Positions 13,119 to 24,565 of a stretch of DNA of 64,000 nt are shown here, piece after piece. Positions within the stretch are counted from its first letter, which is position 1. The number at the start of each line of letters is the position of its first letter. The DNA is from Olsenella uli DSM 7084 (GTDB lineage Bacteria > Actinomycetota > Coriobacteriia > Coriobacteriales > Atopobiaceae), in the NCBI RefSeq assembly GCF_000143845.1, contig NC_014363.1, positions 124,001-188,000 on the forward strand. The letters are read 5' to 3'. The notes under the pieces are model-generated. The model made no database searches, was not told the DNA's origin, and saw only the letters and a program-made list of their open reading frames with translations. The position numbers and the translations under genes are program-made.

Positions 13119-13416
13119 ACCGGACGCGCACGATTCCGTAGGCGCACTCCAATAGATTGACGACATTCGTAGCGGCGAGGCCGTGCCTTGCCGTGTGGCC
13201 GTGCGTATCGCGATAATACGAAAGTCCTATCCCCCTGATGGCCCGTATTACTTTCTCAGGGGGAAGGGGACCGTGGCCTCGAAAAACCGTGAGTTCGGCC
13301 AATGTCGCTTTTCCTCCGAGCCGGATAGATTTGGCACCAATAAAGGCCTGTCGATCATCAGAGACGGTCGGCAGGCCGTGCCCGTTTATATCGGCAGGTA
13401 ACTTGAAGGAGGAAAC
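13119..13416 (+). promoter_or_regulatory. Structured control region before the glycyl radical enzyme gene
   Basis: About 300 bases without a gene. They hold a 10-bp perfect palindrome TATCGCGATA (13206-13215), within a wider AATACG/CGTATT inverted repeat. There is a CCCCCTGA / TCAGGGGG hairpin (13231-13238 with 13256-13263). A 12-bp stem starts GGCCTG at 13345 and closes with CAGGCC at 13377, counting two G-U pairs. A strong ribosome site GAAGGAGG stands just before the ATG. The palindromes are candidate sites for the regulators encoded downstream of the enzyme; the hairpins may be attenuators or the end of the upp transcript. Confidence 0.55.
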
Positions 13417-16053
13417 ATGGAGGAGTCTCTGGTTCTCGAGATGCTGCAGACCGGTAAGACGGCCACGTGGCCGGCAAAGAATCAGCTGCAGGAAAGCGGC
13501 GAGGTCGTCGACAAGGAGGTCAAGGGCACTCCTTCGACCGACCGCACCAGGCGCATGAAGGAACGCTTCATGAATGCCAAGTGCAAGATGGACATGGAGG
13601 CGCCCATCGCATATACCAAGGCATGGCGCGAGCATGAAGGCAAGCCGCTTTATGTCCGCAGGGGGCTTGCCTATAAGTATATGCTCGAGCACCTCACGCC
13701 GGCTATCCGTGAGGACGAGCTCATCACCATGTCCAAGACGCGCTATGACCGTGGTGCCACCCAGGTCCCCCAATTCGCCACTGACTTCATGATCTCCTTC
13801 CTCACCCAGGCCGAAGACCAGAAGGAAGAGGCAAAGCTGTATTCCGTCGAGGGCAAGGATGAGGCCCATACGGTCGAAGAGGAAGGGTGGACCAAGGTCG
13901 GCCAGCTGTTCTCCATCCGCGAGGAGGAGGTCAAGCCGATGCTTGAGGTCCTCGAGTATTGGAAGACGCGCTGCGTTGAGAACGTGTCCGACGATTGGAT
14001 GAAGACCTCCTTCCCCTACTACCAGGACTACGTCAACGCAAAGAAGGTCGGCCTCTTCCCGGGGTCGGGCCTGCATGCCGGCTGTGACGGCCGCTGGATT
14101 CCCGCCTATGACGTTGCCCTCGGGGGCCTCAACAGGGTAATCGAGGAGTGCCGCGAGAAGATCGAGAAGACCGTGGTGACCACCAAGGAGGTCGCCGACA
14201 AGGTCTTCTTCTGGCAAGGCTGCATCTATGCCTGCGAGGGCGCGATCGCCTGGGCCCACAACTATGCGGTCGAGGCCCGGCGCCTTGCCGAGACTGCGGT
14301 CGAGCCACGCAAGACCGAGCTTCTCGAGATGGCAGAACGCCTCGATCGCGTCCCTGCCGAAGCACCCCGCAACTTCATGGAAGCCGTCCAGGCCCTTTGG
14401 ACCACCCAGATCCTCGTCATCTCCGACTCCCTTGCCCTCGGCGTCTCCCCGGGCCGTTGGGGCAAGTTCCTTGAGCCTTATTACGAGAAGGATCTTGCCG
14501 AGGGGCGCATCACCAAGGGACAGGCCCTTGAGGTCATGGAGCTGCTCCGTATCAAATTCTCGACTGAGGAGTACATCACCCCGTCCCTCTGGGCGGCCAT
14601 GGCCTCCTCGAACTCGTTCATGAACCTTGCCGTTGGCGGCCTCGATCCCAAGACGGGCAAGTGCACCGACAACGAGATCGAGGACCTCATCCTCGAGGCC
14701 GGCATCAACATGCCCACCCCGCAACCGACCCTCTCGATCCTTCTCTCCGACAAGACGACAGACCATCTCGCCATCAAGGCCGCCGAGTGCACCAAGGCCG
14801 GCAACGGGTATCCCGCGTGGTTTAACTATGACATGATGGTCCAACACAACCTCGCTATGTATCGCGACGAGGGCATCACCCTTGAGGACGCCCGCAACTG
14901 TGCGCTCTCCGGCTGCGTCGAGAACGGCCTCGCCGGTACCGGTCACCCCATCGCCCACCCGGCCTTCTACAACGAGGGCAAGACCATCGAGCTTGCCTGC
15001 AACGAAGGCGTCGACCCCCGCACGGGCATCAAGGTCATGGATGGCATCGTCCCCATCAAGACGTACGAGGACCTTTGGGACAACTTCATCAAGATCCGCG
15101 AGCACTTCATGCATGTCTACATGCAGTACTGGAATGAGGTCGTCGCCTGCCAGCGCGACATCCACCCCAAGATCATGGGCTCCGTCCTCATGCATGACTG
15201 CATCGAGTCCGGCCGCCCGGTTGACAATCTCGGCTGCCGCTACAACGGTTCCGTCACGCTGCTCGACTCCGGTACAGTTAACGTGGTCAACGGTCTCGCG
15301 GCCATCAAGAAGCTCGTCTTCGAGGACCACAAGTACACTTGGGATGAGTTCAAGGAGGCCATGGACAATAACTTCGGTTTCGTGCTTGGTGCCGAGAAGG
15401 GCAACTTCTCCATGCTCAACCAGGAGATCGACCCTGAAAAGCACATGAAGTACGCCCATATCCACCGAGATGTCCTCAACGCACCCAAGTTTGGCAACGA
15501 CGATGACTTCGTTGACGACATCTTTGTCGACCTCTGGCATGACTACGACCGCGTTACCGCGTCCGAAACCACCTACAACGGCTACCGCTGGATCACCGCC
15601 GCGCTTTCCATATCCGCCCATGGCCCGCATGGTCGTGTGACCGGCGCTACCCCTGACGGTCGTCTCTCCGGAGTGACGCTGTGCGACGGCATCCTGTCCG
15701 CCTCGCCTGGCACCGACGTGAACGGTCCGATCGCCCTCATCCGCTCCGGCGTGAAGCTGGATCCGACCGAGTTCGCCTCGGTGCAGCTCAATATGAAGTT
15801 CCATCCGACTGCCATCCGCGGTGACGAGGGCTCGAGGAACTTCGTGGACTTCATCCACAGCTACTTCCAGATGGGCGGCTATCACGTCCAGTTCAACATC
15901 GTGGATTCGAAGATGCTGCGAGACGCCCAGGATCATCCGCAGAACTATCGCGACCTGATGGTCCGTGTCGCCGGCTTCTCAGCCTACTGGAACGAGCTCG
16001 GCAAACCCATCCAGGACGAGGTCATTGCTCGTACCGAGTACGACGCTCTCTAG
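13417..16053 (+). CDS. Arylacetate-decarboxylase-type glycyl radical enzyme, candidate indoleacetate decarboxylase
   Basis: An 878-residue glycyl radical enzyme. The thiyl/acid pair is in SGCVENG (C500, E502), and the glycyl radical loop is VRVAGFSAYW (G853) close to the C-terminus. The ending LGKPIQDEVIARTEY is that of 4-hydroxyphenylacetate decarboxylase (HPAD) relatives, not of pyruvate formate-lyase or choline lyase. By-eye alignment to C. difficile HpdB (recalled) puts its phenol-contacting His536 and Glu637 at Ala516 and Leu616 here. That argues for a substrate without a para-hydroxyl. HPAD also needs a small iron-sulfur subunit, and none is encoded nearby. Indoleacetate decarboxylase, which makes skatole and is known from Olsenella, fits best; phenylacetate is the alternative. 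The enzyme is cytosolic and oxygen-sensitive, and requires the activase at 17718-18665. Confidence 0.8.
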   Translation: MEESLVLEMLQTGKTATWPAKNQLQESGEVVDKEVKGTPSTDRTRRMKERFMNAKCKMDMEAPIAYTKAWREHEGKPLYVRRGLAYKYMLEHLTPAIREDELITMSKTRYDRGATQVPQFATDFMISFLTQAEDQKEEAKLYSVEGKDEAHTVEEEGWTKVGQLFSIREEEVKPMLEVLEYWKTRCVENVSDDWMKTSFPYYQDYVNAKKVGLFPGSGLHAGCDGRWIPAYDVALGGLNRVIEECREKIEKTVVTTKEVADKVFFWQGCIYACEGAIAWAHNYAVEARRLAETAVEPRKTELLEMAERLDRVPAEAPRNFMEAVQALWTTQILVISDSLALGVSPGRWGKFLEPYYEKDLAEGRITKGQALEVMELLRIKFSTEEYITPSLWAAMASSNSFMNLAVGGLDPKTGKCTDNEIEDLILEAGINMPTPQPTLSILLSDKTTDHLAIKAAECTKAGNGYPAWFNYDMMVQHNLAMYRDEGITLEDARNCALSGCVENGLAGTGHPIAHPAFYNEGKTIELACNEGVDPRTGIKVMDGIVPIKTYEDLWDNFIKIREHFMHVYMQYWNEVVACQRDIHPKIMGSVLMHDCIESGRPVDNLGCRYNGSVTLLDSGTVNVVNGLAAIKKLVFEDHKYTWDEFKEAMDNNFGFVLGAEKGNFSMLNQEIDPEKHMKYAHIHRDVLNAPKFGNDDDFVDDIFVDLWHDYDRVTASETTYNGYRWITAALSISAHGPHGRVTGATPDGRLSGVTLCDGILSASPGTDVNGPIALIRSGVKLDPTEFASVQLNMKFHPTAIRGDEGSRNFVDFIHSYFQMGGYHVQFNIVDSKMLRDAQDHPQNYRDLMVRVAGFSAYWNELGKPIQDEVIARTEYDAL

Positions 16054-16096
16054 CAAGCATCTCCGCGCTTGATCCCCTTGAGGATTTAGTGACTCG

Positions 16097-16131
16097 GGAG
16101 GGGAAGGTGCCTAGCGGGAACCTTCCCCTCC
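16097..16131 (+). other. Perfect 12-bp hairpin between enzyme and transporter genes
   Basis: GGAGGGGAAGGT (16097-16108) pairs exactly with ACCTTCCCCTCC (16120-16131) across an 11-base loop, 43 bases after the enzyme stop. No T run follows. It could protect the 3' end of the enzyme mRNA or reduce read-through to the transporter, either of which would give the enzyme a higher level than its neighbours. Confidence 0.65.
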
Positions 16132-16233
16132 GGTCTTGTACAGGACGCACGTCATGGACGTGCGCTCATGCGGCGCCCCTGCCGCTCCGTTGCCTTCATT
16201 TGTTTCATATCAAACGGCTAGAGGTGAAAAAAG

Positions 16234-17571
16234 GTGAATACGAATTCTGAGCATGACGCCGGAACCGCCAGGTTCTCCGGTTGGAGTGTGACCACTGCTG
16301 CCGTCGTCATTGTCCTCTGCCATATGATGGTGCGCGGCTCATTTGCCACGCTTATCCATGGCATGGTTGCCAGCACCGGTTGGTCCACCGGCGTCGTCTC
16401 GCTCGGCAGCTCCATCTTCATGGTCTTCTACGGGCTGTTTGCCTTCTTGACCGGTACGTATATCAACAAGCTGGGATGCAAGAAGACGTATCTGCTCCAC
16501 GGCTGCATAATGGCCCTCGGGCTATTCCTCTGCAGCTTCGCTCAGGAACCGTGGCAGTACTGGCTCTTCTACGGCGTTATCGCCGGTATCGGCTCTGGTG
16601 CGTTTTGGGCACCCGTCACCTCAATGGTCCGGCAGTGGTTCATAGACAAACTTGGCATCGCCATGGGTCTTACTACGGGTGCCGCCGGCGTTGCCATGTG
16701 CCTCGGCCCCATAGTGTCCATGAATCTCATCGCAGGCCAGTCATGGCAGACAATGATGAGGGTCTTCGCAATCATCCTGATCGTGGGCATCGGCGTTGCG
16801 TCGCAGTTCACCGTCATGAGGCCCGAGGAGGTCGGTCAGAAACCGCTTGGCTACGACGCCTTTATGGAGCGCCAGGCCCGCAAGGCGGCTGGTGGGGATG
16901 ATAAAAAGGCCGATGAGTTCTACGTGCCCTTCAAGTGGGCCGTTCGCCATAAGGCATTCTGGCTCCTTTCCCTCCTGTGGTTCTGCTCGAACTTCGCCGA
17001 GTTCATCGTCTTTTCCCATGCGATCAACTACACCACCACTGACTTGGGGTACGACAAAGTCCAAGCCACGTACATCTACTGCCTCATAGGTCTGGTCTTC
17101 ATCTTCAGCGCAATCGGCATCGGAGGCTTTACCGACAAGCTCACCAAGCGTCTCGGTGATCCACTCAAGGCCCGCAAGCGCGTTCTGACCGTCTCCTATA
17201 TAGGCTGCGCCGCCATGGCGCTCTGGCTCAACTACGGGGTCCGGCTCACTGCCGGTGGGGGAGAGACCATCTGGGCATTCATAGTCTATGCATTGGTCTT
17301 CGGCTTCTTCTACGGCATGTACATCCCGTCTGTGGCTGGCGTGGTGGGCGTAGTCTTCGGTCGTAAGGAGATGCCCCAGTGCTGGGGGCTCATCTCGCTG
17401 GTTGGCATGGCTGGCGGAGCAGGGCTCGGGCCGTATATCGCCGGCGCCCTCCGCGACGCCACGGGAAGCTACTTCGTGGCCATCTGGCTGGCTGTCGTTT
17501 TCTATCTGCTGGCATGCCTCTTCATGAACGTCGTCAGGCAGCCTTCGCGTGAGGAGGTCTGGGGTCGTTAG
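16234..17571 (+). CDS. MFS transporter, oxalate/formate-antiporter-like family
   Basis: A 445-residue integral membrane protein with about twelve hydrophobic helices and a polar central loop around residues 205-240, the usual major-facilitator plan. The conserved stretches GFTDKLTKRLGDP after helix 7 and GRKEMPQCWGLISL near helix 11 resemble carboxylate transporters of the OFA group. It starts with GTG; GAGGTG stands seven bases upstream. Because it lies between the decarboxylase and its activase, it probably imports the arylacetate substrate (or exchanges it for product) across the cytoplasmic membrane. That is inferred from context only. A perfect hairpin stands on each side of the gene. 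Confidence 0.85.
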   Translation: MNTNSEHDAGTARFSGWSVTTAAVVIVLCHMMVRGSFATLIHGMVASTGWSTGVVSLGSSIFMVFYGLFAFLTGTYINKLGCKKTYLLHGCIMALGLFLCSFAQEPWQYWLFYGVIAGIGSGAFWAPVTSMVRQWFIDKLGIAMGLTTGAAGVAMCLGPIVSMNLIAGQSWQTMMRVFAIILIVGIGVASQFTVMRPEEVGQKPLGYDAFMERQARKAAGGDDKKADEFYVPFKWAVRHKAFWLLSLLWFCSNFAEFIVFSHAINYTTTDLGYDKVQATYIYCLIGLVFIFSAIGIGGFTDKLTKRLGDPLKARKRVLTVSYIGCAAMALWLNYGVRLTAGGGETIWAFIVYALVFGFFYGMYIPSVAGVVGVVFGRKEMPQCWGLISLVGMAGGAGLGPYIAGALRDATGSYFVAIWLAVVFYLLACLFMNVVRQPSREEVWGR

Positions 17572-17586
17572 GGACCTATCTCATAT

Positions 17587-17625
17587 GGTCATGCCCAGGT
17601 AAAGAGTTGATACCTGGGCATGACC
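17587..17625 (+). other. Perfect 14-bp hairpin between transporter and activase genes
   Basis: GGTCATGCCCAGGT (17587-17600) pairs exactly with ACCTGGGCATGACC (17612-17625) across an 11-base loop, 15 bases after the transporter stop. No T run follows. It has the same loop length as the hairpin at 16097-16131 but a different stem sequence, so it is not a copy of that element. Confidence 0.65.
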
Positions 17626-17717
17626 CCATGTCGGAGTCGGGCCCTCTCGATGGGGGAGCCTCGAAAAAGAGACAGTCTACGTAGGGCATGTGGGTTTCGA
17701 AGGAAGTGAGCCGAAGC

Positions 17718-18665
17718 ATGGACGGCAAGGGCAAAGAGCTCAGGGCCGTGATTTTCGACGTGCAGAGCTTTTCTACGCATGATGGACCTGGGATCAGGAC
17801 GAACATCTTCTTCAAGGGGTGTGCGCTCAGGTGCCCTTGGTGCGCCAACCCCGAGTCGCAGAAGTTCAGCCCGCAGCTCCTTTACACAAAGATGAAGTGC
17901 ATAGGGTGCATGTGCTGTGCCAGGGCATGCCCCCATGGGGCCGTGACGGCCTATACTGCGCCAGAGGACATCGAGCGTTATGGACACGTACGGTATGACC
18001 GTGGCAAGTGTGATAAGTGCACCACGCATGAGTGCGTGGACGCATGCTTCCAGGAAGCCCTCGCCGTCTCCGGGAAGGAAATGACCGTCGATGACGTAAT
18101 GGATAAGATTCGTCGCGACTCTCCTGTCTTCCGGGGTAAGGGAGGCGTCACCGTATCCGGTGGGGATCCGCTGCTCTATCCTGAGTTCTTGGCCGAGCTG
18201 CTTGGTAGGTGCCGAGATGAGGGGTATAGCGTTGCCCTTGAGTCCGAGCTCTGCGTTCCCACGAGGAACCTCGAGACGGTCATGCCGTTCGTAAGCTACT
18301 ACCTTACCGACTGCAAAATTATCGACTCCGCCGAGCACCGCAGAATCACTGGTGTGGACAATGAGATCATCCTCAGGAACCTGCGCCTGATTGGCGATGT
18401 ATGCCCAGAGCGCATGTGCCTGCGCATACCGATCATACCTGGGTACACAGACTCCGACGAGAACGTTGGCGGTATCGCCGCGTTTGCCGCGTCGTGTCAA
18501 TTCACAAAGATAAACATCCTGCCGTATCACAAGCTTGGCGTGCCCAAGCACGAGCGCCTTGGCACCGTCTATCAGCTACCTCATGTCCAGCCACCCGACG
18601 ATGGGCATATGAGGCACTTGGCTGACGTCATAGAAGCCCATGGGATCGAGTGCGTTATCAACTGA
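17718..18665 (+). CDS. Glycyl radical enzyme activase (radical SAM)
   Basis: A 315-residue radical SAM protein that abstracts a hydrogen from the glycine of the partner enzyme, most likely the product of 13417-16053. The SAM-cluster motif is CALRCPWC near residue 35. It is followed by two ferredoxin-type clusters, CIGCMCCARACP and CDKCTTHECVDAC, as in activases of the HPAD, glycerol and choline enzymes; the pyruvate formate-lyase activase lacks them. GGVTVSGGDPLLYPEF is the conserved SAM-binding stretch. I chose ATG 17718, with AAGGAAGTG about ten bases upstream, over ATG 17688, which lacks a good site and would add ten atypical residues. Confidence 0.93.
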   Translation: MDGKGKELRAVIFDVQSFSTHDGPGIRTNIFFKGCALRCPWCANPESQKFSPQLLYTKMKCIGCMCCARACPHGAVTAYTAPEDIERYGHVRYDRGKCDKCTTHECVDACFQEALAVSGKEMTVDDVMDKIRRDSPVFRGKGGVTVSGGDPLLYPEFLAELLGRCRDEGYSVALESELCVPTRNLETVMPFVSYYLTDCKIIDSAEHRRITGVDNEIILRNLRLIGDVCPERMCLRIPIIPGYTDSDENVGGIAAFAASCQFTKINILPYHKLGVPKHERLGTVYQLPHVQPPDDGHMRHLADVIEAHGIECVIN

Positions 18666-18837
18666 TTGGACCTTGATGGACTGCCGGATTGGAGGAGCCA
18701 GGGACCATCGTCAGCAAGCACGGCGGCGGTAATGCCATCGAATGGCAAAGCCATTGAGGAGACTGTGGCGCCCGCCCATACGACACTTCGGAGACAATCA
18801 ACACCTCCTTAAACCTCTCGGCAATTGGAGCAGGTCG

Positions 18838-19575
18838 ATGTCGCATCTTGAGGAAAATTCATCGAGTGCAATGGCGAAACTGCAGCGCCTGCAAGACGAG
18901 CTGTCCCAGTTCTTCTCCATCAGCATCAGGATTCTCAGTCGGGATGACCTCAAGTCGCTCACCGTGGAATCCAATGGGCATACGCGTTGCCTGACAAACC
19001 GAGGGGCACATCCTGACATCTGCGAACGATTCATACTCAGGGTCATCGACCTAGATCCGGGTGACGTCATGGTCTCGATGTGCCCCTTCGGCCTGCTCAG
19101 CGCCATCGTCCCGCTTGGCAAGTCAATGTGGGCGGGCTTACATGAAGAGAAGGCTCGCTATTTTTTTCTCGCCGTGCACAATCCGGCGTATGAAGGGGCG
19201 GGTGGCGTCGAGGTCGAGCAGAAGCGCACGGTCACCTCGATCGTCAGTGGCATGGACCTTCATGACAAGATCGAGTTCGAGGAGAAGGTACGTCTTGTCG
19301 CGAGCGTATTCGATCTGGTCTTCTCGATCCTTACAGAACAGGAGCAGCAAGACCTCATTGCCACGGGTGCCGTCGGCATGGCAGAGCTGAGAAGGCTCAC
19401 AAAACGAGAGCGAGAGGTGATGCGCCTTGTGTGCGTGGGCATGTCGAACCAGCGAGTGGCCGAGGAGCTTTTCATCAGCGAGCATACAGTCAAGCTGCAT
19501 GTGAGCAGTATTCTCAAGAAGCTCAACCTTGCGAACCGGACTCAGCTGGCCATCTATGGGGCTAAGGTGCTCTGA
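18838..19575 (+). CDS. LuxR-type transcriptional regulator with N-terminal sensory domain
   Basis: A 245-residue DNA-binding protein. The C-terminal 60 residues are a LuxR/NarL helix-turn-helix ([18 protein letters not shown] then [19 protein letters not shown]). The first 170 residues look like a PocR-type ligand or redox sensory domain with spaced cysteines (HPDICERF, then [15 protein letters not shown]), but this assignment is tentative. There is no receiver domain, so it is not a classical response regulator. I chose ATG 18838 (GGAG nine bases upstream) over an upstream start at 18742 that would add an unlikely Arg/Pro-rich leader. It follows the activase and abuts the kinase gene with no gap. 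It probably controls the decarboxylase genes, by position only. Confidence 0.8.
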
Positions 19576-21549
19576 ATGAAGCAACGGAAGATATCCACAT
19601 ACTTCAATACGGGCATAACGTGCATTCTCGCGACCATCTTCATACTGGTGATCGTCATCGGTGTGTGGCTCGCCCGTGATTCGACCATAAGCAGCGTGGT
19701 TGCCCGTTTGGATGTCTGCCTGCAGACGGCATACGACCGTCTCGATCTTGAGGACGCCATCGGACGCGCGAGGCTTCTTGAGGTAATCGAATACGAAGGC
19801 GTGGCCTCACTGATCGAAAACAGTGACGTCTCGCAGTTGAGCCGCGTGCTTGAACGCTGCAAGTTCGATATGGGGGAGAGCTATGCGGTTGCCGTTGACT
19901 CCAACGGAACGGTGATCGCCAGCAACGTACATGTTGCGGGAAGCAGCTGGCCCCTCGCGTACCTGCTGGATTCCGTAAAGCAAGAGGGCGAGACGATAAC
20001 GACAACCGAAGTGATCGCCGCGGACAGGCTCAAAGACAGCCGTCAGTCACTGCGGGATGGAGCGCGAGTCATCATTGACCGAACAACGGCGAGAAGCCTG
20101 AATGATGCCTACGTGCACATTACCGTATGCCCCATATACAGCGGCGAGACCTTTGTCGGGGCCGTCGTCGAGGGCTATCTTCTCAACAACAACCATGAGT
20201 TCCCCACCGATTACACCAACGCCGTCCCAGGAACCTATCTCTCTGTGGGAACTACGGATGGGGTACGCATCTGTTCAAACATATCCTCCAATGGCTTCTC
20301 GTATCCTGCGGGAACCACCCAAAGGCGCGACTTCGTAGACGTCATCAACAAGGGAGGCATCTGGCGCGGGCAGGTATCCATGGTGGACGGTGGCGAAGGC
20401 GTCGTCGTTGCCGGCCCAATAACCGATTATTCCGGCCGAGTGATCGGCAACATCGGCGTAGGCTCGCCCATTTTCATGATCTCCGGTCTGTCCGCCAGCC
20501 ACTACGTCCTGTTTGTTCTCGTCGCGGCCGCGTTCTTCATATGCGCGGCCCTTTTGGGACGCAAGCTCACCGCCATGATCACACGCCCCATTTCCGATCT
20601 TCAGGATATCTCGCGGACCATCACCAAAGGGGAGCTGCCCTCCTCTGACATGCTTCGAAGCAGGTCGAGCGTGCCCTCGGAGATCGTCTCCTTGGCCGAT
20701 GACATGTATGTCATGGCCCGCAAGCTCACCGACAAGAACCAACGTCTTGAGGAGAAGGTGTCTGCACGTACCGCCCAGCTCGCCAATACGGTCGACGAGC
20801 TCAGGGCAGCCAACCGTCACAAGTCGCAGTTCCTGGCCAATATTTCGCATGAGCTGCGCACGCCGCTCAACTCAATCATCGGGTTCGCCTCTCTTCTCCA
20901 AGAGAATGTGGCGGGCGATCTGAACGCGACGCAGACGAGGTACGCAGAAATCATCATTGAGAGCGGGGGGCATCTCCTCGACCTCATCAACGACATCCTC
21001 CAGCTCGTAAAGCTCGACACAAGCGTTGACAAGCTCAAGCTCTCTCGGGTAAGCGTTATCGAGGCGATCAGGAACCCCGTCGATTTGATTCGTCCGCTTG
21101 CAGACGAGAGAGGGCAGGGACTCGAAGTCATCGTCGCGGACGAGCTGGATGGATACACGGCTTATTGGGATGAGCAGAAAGTCCATCAGATCCTGCTCAA
21201 CCTGCTTTCCAATGCGGTGAAGTTCTCCCCTGACGGAGGCCGCATCCGAGTCAAGGCCTCCCTTGTGGAGGAGAACTTTGTGTTCATACACGTCATCGAC
21301 AACGGCATCGGTATCAGCAACGACATGAAAGAGCGCGTCTTTCTGGCCTTCGAGCAAGCTGACAACAGCTATACGCGCATCTACAAGGGCGCCGGTCTCG
21401 GCCTTGCCATCACAAAGGACTTGGTCGAGATGCACAGCGGCCGCATTTGGCTTGAAGACGCGCCGGGGGGCGGCCTGGACGCATGCGTCGTACTTCCACT
21501 CTGCTCGAATAGGAAGCCTGACAAAAAGGATGGACAGGAGGCGGACTGA
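19576..21549 (+). CDS. Membrane sensor histidine kinase with extracytoplasmic Cache-like domain
   Basis: A 657-residue kinase. The first helix is at residues 13-33. An extracytoplasmic domain of about 270 residues with a Cache-like pattern follows (AVAVDSNGTVIAS, then VGNIGVG-type ends). The second helix is near 315-335, then a HAMP segment (TRPISDLQDIS) and a coiled stretch. The phosphoacceptor region is ANISHELRTPLNSIIGF, with His425. The ATPase domain has its N box (LLNLLSNAVKFSPDGG), the DNGIGIS box and GAGLGLAI. The Cache-like domain suggests sensing of a small molecule outside the cell. It starts right after the luxR stop and overlaps the response regulator by one base, so the two form a two-component system. 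Confidence 0.92.
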   Translation: MKQRKISTYFNTGITCILATIFILVIVIGVWLARDSTISSVVARLDVCLQTAYDRLDLEDAIGRARLLEVIEYEGVASLIENSDVSQLSRVLERCKFDMGESYAVAVDSNGTVIASNVHVAGSSWPLAYLLDSVKQEGETITTTEVIAADRLKDSRQSLRDGARVIIDRTTARSLNDAYVHITVCPIYSGETFVGAVVEGYLLNNNHEFPTDYTNAVPGTYLSVGTTDGVRICSNISSNGFSYPAGTTQRRDFVDVINKGGIWRGQVSMVDGGEGVVVAGPITDYSGRVIGNIGVGSPIFMISGLSASHYVLFVLVAAAFFICAALLGRKLTAMITRPISDLQDISRTITKGELPSSDMLRSRSSVPSEIVSLADDMYVMARKLTDKNQRLEEKVSARTAQLANTVDELRAANRHKSQFLANISHELRTPLNSIIGFASLLQENVAGDLNATQTRYAEIIIESGGHLLDLINDILQLVKLDTSVDKLKLSRVSVIEAIRNPVDLIRPLADERGQGLEVIVADELDGYTAYWDEQKVHQILLNLLSNAVKFSPDGGRIRVKASLVEENFVFIHVIDNGIGISNDMKERVFLAFEQADNSYTRIYKGAGLGLAITKDLVEMHSGRIWLEDAPGGGLDACVVLPLCSNRKPDKKDGQEAD

Positions 21550-22460
21550 TGAAGAAGATCCTGGTCGTAGAAGATGACCCTGCGAGCCTAACGCTTATTA
21601 CCGAAATCCTGAAGGGGTACGACTACACTGTGGTTTCCGCGCTGGACGGTCGGTCCGCGCTGGACGTGAGCAAGCGCGAGAACCCGGACCTCATCATCCT
21701 CGACGTGATGCTCCCGGCCCTTAATGGCTATCAGGTCTGCGAGCGTCTGCGCAGCATGTCCCAGTTTCGCAACACCCCCATAATCATGCTCACCGTCCTC
21801 AATGAGGATTCCCAGCGCATCCGCGCCCTTGAGGCCGGTGCCAACGGGTTCCTCAGCAAACCGTTCAAGCGCGTGGAGCTCCTCACGCGCATCAAGGCGT
21901 TGCTGTCGGCGCAGGTGAACTCCGACGAGATGGTCTCGTTGAACACGGTGATCTCCTCCATGCTCACAGCCCTTGAGCTTAGGTGCGCGGGCTCGACCAT
22001 GAGCAGCCGCCGATGCGCCGACCTTGCCGAGCGCCTGGCTGTGGTGATGGGCATTCCAAGCGGAAATGTCCGCGACCTGCGCAGGGGGCTCCTCCTCAGG
22101 GACATAGGCTACGTGGCTTGCAATGACGCGAGCGTTGCCGTCGAGAACAACTTCACGGCACATTCCGAGCATGCCATACGCAGCCTGCAGATCGTGGGCG
22201 CATTCGGTCATGAGATAATCGATGCGGTGGTGCGCTACCACCACTGCACCCTGCAGAGCGAGGACTATCCCGCAAATCTCAATACGGAGGTCCTTGCATG
22301 CGTCAAAGTCGCCATCGTATGCACTCGTCTCGAAGGACTGCTCTACGGAAACGAAGGCCTTTCGGTGCAGGCCGCATGTGCGACACTCACGAATGAGGTG
22401 TCGGCGGGCCTTCTCCCGTCCGAAGAAGTAGCCTTCGTCACGCGCCTCATCTCCACATAG
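21549..22460 (+). CDS. Response regulator with a degenerate HD-GYP output domain
   Basis: A 303-residue protein. Residues 1-120 form a receiver domain with acidic pocket E8/D9/D10, phosphoacceptor D52 in LIILDVMLP, and the conserved T and K in MLTVL and SKPF. The rest resembles an HD-GYP phosphodiesterase (TALELRC, SRRCADLAERLAVVMG, AVVRYHHC). The catalytic HD pair is replaced by R184-D185 in LLRDIGYV, and the DGxGYP segment is lost (SEDYP). It has no DNA-binding domain. It is therefore probably a protein-interaction or sequestering output rather than an active cyclic-di-GMP hydrolase. It is translationally coupled to the kinase (TGATG). Confidence 0.85.
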   Translation: MKKILVVEDDPASLTLITEILKGYDYTVVSALDGRSALDVSKRENPDLIILDVMLPALNGYQVCERLRSMSQFRNTPIIMLTVLNEDSQRIRALEAGANGFLSKPFKRVELLTRIKALLSAQVNSDEMVSLNTVISSMLTALELRCAGSTMSSRRCADLAERLAVVMGIPSGNVRDLRRGLLLRDIGYVACNDASVAVENNFTAHSEHAIRSLQIVGAFGHEIIDAVVRYHHCTLQSEDYPANLNTEVLACVKVAIVCTRLEGLLYGNEGLSVQAACATLTNEVSAGLLPSEEVAFVTRLIST

Positions 22461-22518
22461 CCACCAAAGAAAGGTGACCTGACTCGTATGGGCGATCGTC
22501 TGCCAAGGGAGTGAAGAG

Positions 22519-23541
22519 ATGGTAGCTTGCTTTTCCGATGCGCCAGCTGATGCCGCGTGGACGGCAGGTGCTGATGTCGACTGCGACTTGGGCAAGGCCG
22601 TAGGCATGGAGCTTTCCGAACGGCTCTGGAGAGAACTTGTCGCTCCCCAGATCGAGCGGGAAATTCCCGGCGTGACCAGTCGTGTCGCGGTGGGCAGGGT
22701 CGGGGAGGGCTCTGAATGCTGGGGCACAGACGACGTGCTCTCACGTGATCATGATTGGGGGGCGGGGTTGTGCCTGTGGGTATCCGACGATGTCGTAGGC
22801 GCGTCAGAGCGCGAGCGGATGGGGGCCCATGTCGCTCGACTCGTAGCGCAGGCGCAGAAGACCTGCGACTATCCCGTGCTCCCCTTTGCGGGTCCACGGC
22901 TTGGCATCTTTGAGACGGGTGAGTTCTACCGACGCTTTATCGGATTGAATCATGTCCCGGCATCTATGGACGAGTGGCTGGCGACCCCCGTATATGGGCT
23001 GGCGGTCGCCGTCAACGGCCGCGTGTTCTCCGATGGACCGGGAAGGTTCACCGACTTTCGCAACGCGCTGACCGACGAGTGCCCGCAGGACATCTTCTTG
23101 CGAAGGATGTCAATTGACGCCTTTGGGGCAGGTCAGGCAGGACAATACAACCTGCTTCGCGCGCTTAAGCGGGGAAACGTGCCGACAGCCGAACTCATGC
23201 GCAGCTCCTTTTTGGTATGTGCGCTGCGCCTTCTGTTCTCGTTGAACGGGCGGCACTATCCGTTCAACAAATGGCTGTACCAGAAGGCCGGGCAGCTTCC
23301 TGGGGCGCATCCGCTCTGCCTTCGCATAGGCCAATTGGCCAAAGTGCATCTGGACGGAGACGATGCGCTCCTTCGCTGCGCTGATTTGGTCGACGAGATA
23401 TGCGAGGCGCTCCTAGTCGCCTTCGAGTGCCACGGGCTACCGCGCGCCAACGACGGCTTCTTGGTTAGCGAGGCGGAGGGGCTGCACGAAACGATAGGCG
23501 ACGCAACAGTGGCGTCCCTGCCCTACATGATGGCACGATAG
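22519..23541 (+). CDS. DUF4037 protein, nucleotidyltransferase-like
   Basis: A 340-residue protein with the DUF4037 pattern: GEGSECWGTDDVLSRDHDWG near residue 65 resembles the GS...D.D active site of minimal nucleotidyltransferases. The helical C-terminal half contains NGRHYPFNKWLYQ. The N-terminal 25 residues are acidic and Ala-rich. AAGGGAGTG lies eight bases before the ATG. The neighbour is a DUF4125 protein, and the two families are commonly found together; their joint role is unknown. It begins 58 bases after the response regulator and could be read through from that operon, but no functional link is evident. Confidence 0.8.
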   Translation: MVACFSDAPADAAWTAGADVDCDLGKAVGMELSERLWRELVAPQIEREIPGVTSRVAVGRVGEGSECWGTDDVLSRDHDWGAGLCLWVSDDVVGASERERMGAHVARLVAQAQKTCDYPVLPFAGPRLGIFETGEFYRRFIGLNHVPASMDEWLATPVYGLAVAVNGRVFSDGPGRFTDFRNALTDECPQDIFLRRMSIDAFGAGQAGQYNLLRALKRGNVPTAELMRSSFLVCALRLLFSLNGRHYPFNKWLYQKAGQLPGAHPLCLRIGQLAKVHLDGDDALLRCADLVDEICEALLVAFECHGLPRANDGFLVSEAEGLHETIGDATVASLPYMMAR

Positions 23542-23615
23542 CATCAAGTGCGCAGGCAGCGGGCATTTTTGGCTACGAGGAAGAGGGCTAACGCTTACAT
23601 CGGCGAGGGGGAGAG

Positions 23616-24272
23616 ATGGAAGGAAGTAGGGACGAGGCAATGCGGCAGACGCTCATCGCCGACATCGAATGCATGGAATGGGACATGTTCTCCAGCGTCA
23701 ACAACATTGGGGGCAAGGCCGACTGCCAAAACGATCGCGACCAGTTCTCGGTCATGCGGGAGGCGTCGTATGCGACATGGACCTCGGAGATGCTTGAAAG
23801 CTATAAGGGTGACCTGGAGCGAGCGGCATCCCAGGGCGTAAACCTCATGAGTGAGAAATATGCCCGCATGATGGAGGTAACCATGCCCGGTGCCATCGAC
23901 ATGCCCCCGCTGCCCGATGCCCGCAGGGCGCTCATGGATGAGGCGATGGGCATTGTCATGCCGTGGGAGGAGGAGCTGTACGAGAGGTACGCACTCTTGC
24001 GACACCGTGCGCGCAGCCTTACGCAGGCATCTGAGGATGGGAGCGCGATTTCGGGCACGGCCTTCGATACCTATCTATACGGAGAGCTCTCCATCTATTC
24101 TGAGCGCACGCTTCGTCTGTATGTCGAGCACCTGCGCATGCAGAGGGCAGCGGGGACGAACGGGAGCATGGCGGTTTACGACAGGATGGCTCGCCTGCAG
24201 GGATGGGCCTCGTTCGATGCTGCCGACAAGGATTTCCGCAAACGCATGACAGAAGAAAACCATGCAGGGTAG
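23616..24272 (+). CDS. DUF4125 family protein
   Basis: A 218-residue, mostly helical, acidic protein with no membrane segment. The N-terminal motif CMEWDMFSSVNNIGGKADCQ, followed by QFSVMREASYATW, is characteristic of DUF4125. The C-terminus carries the conserved aromatic-rich stretch ELSIYSERTLRLYVEH. GGGGGAGAG precedes the ATG at 23616. The family usually sits beside DUF4037, as here. No enzymatic motif is obvious, and no function is proposed. Confidence 0.75.
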   Translation: MEGSRDEAMRQTLIADIECMEWDMFSSVNNIGGKADCQNDRDQFSVMREASYATWTSEMLESYKGDLERAASQGVNLMSEKYARMMEVTMPGAIDMPPLPDARRALMDEAMGIVMPWEEELYERYALLRHRARSLTQASEDGSAISGTAFDTYLYGELSIYSERTLRLYVEHLRMQRAAGTNGSMAVYDRMARLQGWASFDAADKDFRKRMTEENHAG

Positions 24273-24565
24273 AAGGCACTCGAGCGACGGGCCTGGCGTC
24301 GCATGCGGATTGGTAAGGAAAAGACTGTCGGACGGAGGTGGAGGCTGCCCGCGCTTTAAATGCGATGTGCCTGCTGCCCTGTGGTATCGCCACACCGGCC
24401 TCGCATTTTCTAGCACTTTTGGCGGCAAGCGCTATACTTGCGAACATGTGATTGCGGAGTGGCTCTTGCCCGGCTGGTTCCCCAGTCATATGATGCCGTG
24501 TGCAAAATGGATTACGTCTGCTGACAGAGATGGATTGCTGTGACATTCTGGGGGGATGATCTTTA
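24273..24565 (+). promoter_or_regulatory. Leader region of the ATP synthase operon
   Basis: No gene is seen in these 293 bases. TATACT at 24433-24438, preceded by an AT-richer stretch, is the best -10 candidate for the atp operon, about 130 bases before atpB. A matching -35 is not clear. No atpI-like gene is present between this promoter and atpB. Confidence 0.35.

Follow-up and report, generated by a model that had tools for sequence, protein, structure and literature searches.

The arylacetate-decarboxylase island of Olsenella uli raises a question of control. Behind the genes of a glycyl radical enzyme lie a LuxR-type regulator, a sensor kinase and a response regulator, and the response regulator has no recognisable DNA-binding domain. 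What, then, does it act on? The window, meaning here the whole 64-kb stretch of O. uli DNA that was analysed, contains the following features around these three genes, referred to below as the trio.

13220..13230, + strand: GAAAGTCCTAT, a candidate regulatory box 197 bases upstream of the start of the decarboxylase gene
13417..16053, + strand: indoleacetate decarboxylase (IAD), a glycyl radical enzyme and the presumed target of regulation (NF033718, 1766 bits, cut-off 1100)
16234..17571, + strand: MFS transporter, presumed to take up arylacetate (PF07690)
17688..18665, + strand: IAD activase, a radical SAM protein, exact start uncertain (NF033719, 478 bits, cut-off 425)
18838..19575, + strand: PocR-LuxR-like regulator with an N-terminal PocR-like ligand domain (PF10114, 0.003) and a C-terminal LuxR helix-turn-helix (HTH; PF00196, 4e-21)
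19576..21549, + strand: sensor histidine kinase with a double Cache (dCache_3) extracytoplasmic domain, HisKA and HATPase_c (Pfam domains)
21549..22460, + strand: response regulator, a receiver (Response_reg, 1e-30) followed by a degenerate HD-GYP-type domain (weak HD match, 0.003), no HTH
22519..23541, + strand: DUF4037 protein (PF13228)
23616..24272, + strand: DUF4125 protein (PF13526, 5e-66)

The original prediction, made from the letters of the window, placed the trio behind decarboxylase genes and described it as packed without gaps. Rechecking the sequence gave the same coordinates: the kinase starts at 19576, directly after the end of the LuxR open reading frame at 19575 (0 gap), and the ATG of the response regulator at 21549 shares 1 base with the kinase stop. 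The upstream neighbours are indeed IAD, the transporter and the activase, with a gap of 172 bases between the activase and the LuxR gene. A longer in-frame start for the LuxR gene exists at 18742, yet conservation begins at 18838. The O. uli IAD was studied in PMC9248008, and the uptake role of the transporter was proposed in PMC6181972.

The IAD block, together with the DUF4037 and DUF4125 genes (window 13119-24565), sits between upp and atpB. In genomes that are free of the block the order is Sua5-RpiB-UPP-AtpB, with a UPP to AtpB spacing of about 0.5-1.2 kb (7/7 genomes tested). The same UPP-AtpB place holds a block for p-hydroxyphenylacetate decarboxylase (HPAD), the sister enzyme of IAD, with its own PocR-LuxR pair in two genomes of genus g15 (L048 and L102).

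Domains of the three regulators

Pfam agrees with the prediction that the LuxR-type protein is the only DNA-binding member of the trio, and its C-terminal GerE HTH places it in the LuxR/GerE family. The N-terminal PocR match is sub-threshold in the window protein (E 0.003) and scores 15.5-18.8 bits in IAD-type LuxR proteins, under the gathering score of 23.9, while the LuxR proteins of HPAD loci reach 32-60 bits and pass it. The two types are alignable over most of their length and have two cysteines in common. The kinase, predicted to be a Cache-like sensor, carries dCache_3 (5e-52), HisKA and HATPase_c. It forms a two-component system with the response regulator, whose receiver has all of its phosphotransfer residues intact: D9, D10, D52, T82 and K104.

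The response regulator had been described as lacking an HTH, which Pfam supports. The protein is not without an output, however: an eroded HD-GYP-type domain, detected by HD and HD_5 matches, was overlooked. It occupies the C-terminal ~180 residues and follows the receiver, as in RpfG-type proteins. The HD match of the window protein itself is weak (E 0.003), and the ortholog from Collinsella bouchesdurhonensis (L042) scores 24.0 against Pfam HD, above the gathering threshold of 22, and lies nearly at the gathering score for HD_5 (E 7.5e-6). When the C-terminal domain was used as a profile, the nearest other matches in the family aligned as ordinary HD-GYP proteins, and the best PDB sequence match was a 3'3'-cGAMP phosphodiesterase (5z7c, E 3e-5). 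The catalytic motifs of HD-GYP response regulators are altered in all four IAD-type proteins: HD has become RD, GYP has become DYP, and HHE has become HHC or HHS. In the window protein, LLRDIG stands in place of LLHDIG and HHCTLQSEDYP in place of HHERxDGxGYP. Because these motifs are altered in all four, the domain is unlikely to act as a hydrolase.

Structure models of the response regulator and the LuxR protein had mean pLDDT values of 57 and 58 and were poor beyond the receiver, and the matches listed by a PDB fold search were all receiver-containing proteins. The Tractidigestivibacter scatoligenes genome has a short open reading frame (L066, G159:C9:593678-593818) whose match to the response regulator is confined to the final 47 residues, and which is perhaps the remnant of a second copy.

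Linkage to arylacetate decarboxylases in Coriobacteriales

The prediction could be probed by looking for the trio beside other arylacetate decarboxylases. A genome scan for IAD found three further species besides that of the window, namely T. scatoligenes, C. bouchesdurhonensis and Atopobium sp. UBA2090, and the trio lies beside the enzyme in each, giving 4/4 IAD loci. In Atopobium sp. UBA2090 the trio is arranged as in the window, co-directional with IAD; in T. scatoligenes and C. bouchesdurhonensis it is divergent from IAD. Its genes abut or overlap at all four loci and in both orientations. Of 395 Coriobacteriales genomes, four encode the response regulator, counted by its C-terminal domain (E under 1e-15); the same four, and no others, have an IAD that exceeds the family cut-off, and the regulator always adjoins the enzyme. 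The four genomes represent four genera and two families, and the probability of such a coincidence is about 1e-9 when relatedness is left uncorrected. The conservation of the trio beside IAD exceeds chance, and within Coriobacteriales it is not the case that the trio occurs mostly away from glycyl radical enzymes.

At the 16 HPAD loci found in Coriobacteriales the pattern is more varied, with the trio or a reduced pair at 12. Three Eggerthellaceae loci have the full trio in the order PocR-LuxR, kinase, response regulator; at one of the Eggerthellaceae loci (L149) the LuxR gene is cut at the end of the stretch and its PocR part was detected. At nine loci (eight Atopobiaceae and one from the Collinsella family) a PocR-LuxR gene is followed directly by an HTH-less receiver protein. 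No kinase related to that of the trio was found around the seven pair loci surveyed beyond 3.9 kb (G028, G041, G050-C17, G058, G104, G162 and G220); the pair loci of G014 and G159 were covered in 3.9-kb pieces. The searched stretches of the remaining four HPAD loci (G000, G011, G050-C8 and G195) contain neither pair nor trio. One of these four (L044, G000:C1:1152000-1171000), with no PocR-LuxR pair, does have an OmpR-type two-component pair in its vicinity, along with TPR-like genes. Among 140 Atopobiaceae genomes, PocR was detected in exactly the eight that have an HPAD pair, by a search that does not pick up the weak PocR domain of the window protein.

The receivers differ between these arrangements. 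In the alignment, the phospho-acceptor Asp is kept in 7/7 response regulators that have an adjacent kinase gene, and Ser replaces it in 7/7 aligned pair-type receiver proteins (five plus L087 and L088). Arg takes the place of the conserved receiver Lys in the three proteins from Eggerthellaceae. In one genome (L047/L091, G050:C17) a frameshift interrupts the pseudo-receiver gene, reflecting either decay of the gene or an error in the assembly.

Common to the 16 regulated loci (4 IAD, 12 HPAD) are two proteins, one PocR-LuxR-like and the other with a receiver fold and no DNA-binding domain. Comparison by hhalign did not demonstrate homology between IAD-type and HPAD-type receiver proteins in their C-terminal domains (probabilities under 1%, with shuffled sequences scoring equally), and a receiver tree, with a very long branch, was too poorly resolved to speak for or against a common origin of the two types of receiver. 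With the C-terminal homology undemonstrated and the tree without resolution, the parallel between the two types may be convergent, and kinase "loss" at the pair loci is one reading of the pattern.

How the response regulator may act

Altogether we consider it about an even bet that the trio is a dedicated control module of the arylacetate-decarboxylase island, in which the response regulator acts via the PocR-LuxR protein. The dCache_3 kinase would sense a signal from outside, which is probably indoleacetate or another arylacetate related to it, and is predicted to phosphorylate the receiver, whose phosphotransfer residues are intact. Since the response regulator has no recognisable DNA-binding domain and its HD-type domain seems to be inactivated, it would work by protein binding, as a co-regulator, with the co-encoded PocR-LuxR protein as its most likely partner. 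The PocR-LuxR protein would use its PocR domain to sense an internal ligand and would bind the promoter of the IAD-MFS-activase genes, and the phosphorylated response regulator would raise or lower its activity. If the response regulator tunes the LuxR protein in this way, signals from the membrane and the cytoplasm would meet at a single DNA-binding protein.

The original prediction already proposed that the LuxR protein may be what the response regulator acts on; this is plausible, and it has more support than the letters of the window could give it. The best evidence comes from the HPAD pair loci, where a receiver protein is kept directly behind PocR-LuxR, with no kinase found and with Ser at the acceptor site, which suggests action on the LuxR protein; direct contact is what we infer from it. 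Because the receiver protein persists without a found kinase or an acceptor site, it must be conserved for more than taking up phosphate, and binding the adjacent DNA-binding protein would be the simplest role remaining, judging from gene linkage. In most HPAD islands the phosphorylation input would be missing, and the receiver-fold co-regulator and PocR-LuxR would remain as a two-gene core. Somewhat more tentatively, we suggest that HTH-less receiver-fold proteins are obligatory co-regulators of PocR-LuxR proteins at arylacetate decarboxylase islands, under phospho-control where a kinase is present and persisting as phosphorylation-independent pseudo-receivers where it is absent.

The trio may instead be two independent regulators in one operon, with the LuxR protein controlling IAD while the two-component pair has some other target or acts post-translationally on the enzyme, the activase or the transporter. 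The response regulator has no DNA-binding part and its tie to the LuxR protein is one of gene linkage, as this explanation would have it. However, the three genes stay together, abutting or overlapping, across a change in the orientation of the block, and the pairing of LuxR with a receiver protein recurs at HPAD loci where no kinase was found. We therefore think independent regulation rather unlikely.

A role in c-di-GMP signalling appears less likely again. Here the degenerate HD-GYP-type domain would bind c-di-GMP or a GGDEF protein and so change c-di-GMP, while the LuxR protein alone controls IAD. The HD-GYP ancestry of the domain speaks for such a role, as does the one GGDEF protein encoded in the O. 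uli genome, and degenerate HD-GYP response regulators such as NosR have been proposed to act on other c-di-GMP enzymes (PMC12570481). But the metal-ligand motif HD is RD in 4/4 proteins, the response regulator tracks IAD across the 395 genomes, and a c-di-GMP role would leave the strict linkage to LuxR and decarboxylase unexplained.

The original label "partner-switch-like" cannot be taken in the strict sense of SpoIIA/Rsb, where a phosphorylation-controlled antagonist releases a regulator: the resemblance is functional only, in that a phosphorylatable non-DNA-binding protein is paired with a DNA-binding one, and such a membership is highly improbable and was rejected, the kinase being an ordinary HisKA two-component kinase and the three proteins having no STAS, PP2C or anti-sigma-type kinase domain in Pfam.

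One candidate for a target site was found upstream of IAD. AAAGTNCTA is common to the upstream regions of 4/4 IAD loci, at about -171 to -195, and is the only 9-mer (with one wildcard) in all four regions; 0/200 shuffle sets yield one, a comparison that gives only moderate support because the shuffles ignore relatedness. GAAAGTNCTAT, of which 0.02 copies would be expected in the 64 kb, occurs once in the window, at 13220, and forms half of a 12-base dyad in T. scatoligenes. We regard the shared box as a candidate site for the LuxR protein at IAD, and as a lead, since it was found after looking and the shuffles ignore descent.

Known systems and significance

The proposed action through the PocR-LuxR protein resembles several known arrangements in part. 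RssB and PhyR are response regulators whose output does not bind DNA and which work by contacting another protein. By analogy, the O. uli protein also seems to join a receiver to an enzyme-like or sigma-like fold that does not bind DNA and would instead bind a protein, but its supposed partner is a ligand-sensing LuxR-type protein and not a sigma or anti-sigma factor. PocR regulators are known from diol/glycerol dehydratase and other anaerobic loci, and PocR-kinase systems from PDU loci and the 1,3-propanediol operon of C. butyricum (PMC4207490). As in those systems, where the regulator sometimes belongs to a two-component system, a regulator with a PocR-like domain lies beside an anaerobic enzyme locus; unlike in them, where PocR is part of an AraC-type protein or a kinase, the domain is joined here to the HTH of a LuxR-type protein, and the two-component pair comes in addition, its response regulator lacking a DNA-binding part.

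RpfG-type proteins and the degenerate NosR (PMC12570481) share the order of receiver and HD-GYP-type domain, and NosR also has an altered HD motif (HG-GTP), whereas the present protein is linked to a LuxR gene within an enzyme island and has the motifs RD and DYP. In CerM/CerN of Cereibacter sphaeroides an HTH-less protein counteracts a LuxR-type protein, but CerN is a LuxR homologue that works with AHL and not a receiver-domain protein (PMC11655674). In the library searched, no paper was found that combines PocR, LuxR and response regulator, or p-cresol, glycyl radical and LuxR, and term searches of the O. uli IAD paper (PMC9248008) and of the paper on the discovery of IAD found no mention of these regulators.

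IAD and HPAD are the glycyl radical enzymes that lead from arylacetates to skatole, the smell of manure, and p-cresol. If the proposal is true, the trio is a candidate switch for skatole production and could serve as a genomic marker for regulated arylacetate decarboxylation. The natural series of intact receiver, altered-Lys receiver and acceptor-less receiver would then help to show how a one-component regulator gains or loses a two-component input.

The two genes downstream of the trio also recur. Homologues of the DUF4037 and DUF4125 genes are found in HPAD islands of Eggerthellaceae and of one Collinsella-family genome, and the two genes, frequently accompanied by a TPR gene, are a repeated feature of such decarboxylase islands in different families (window 22519-24272; L148 11585-13184; L149; L150; L146).
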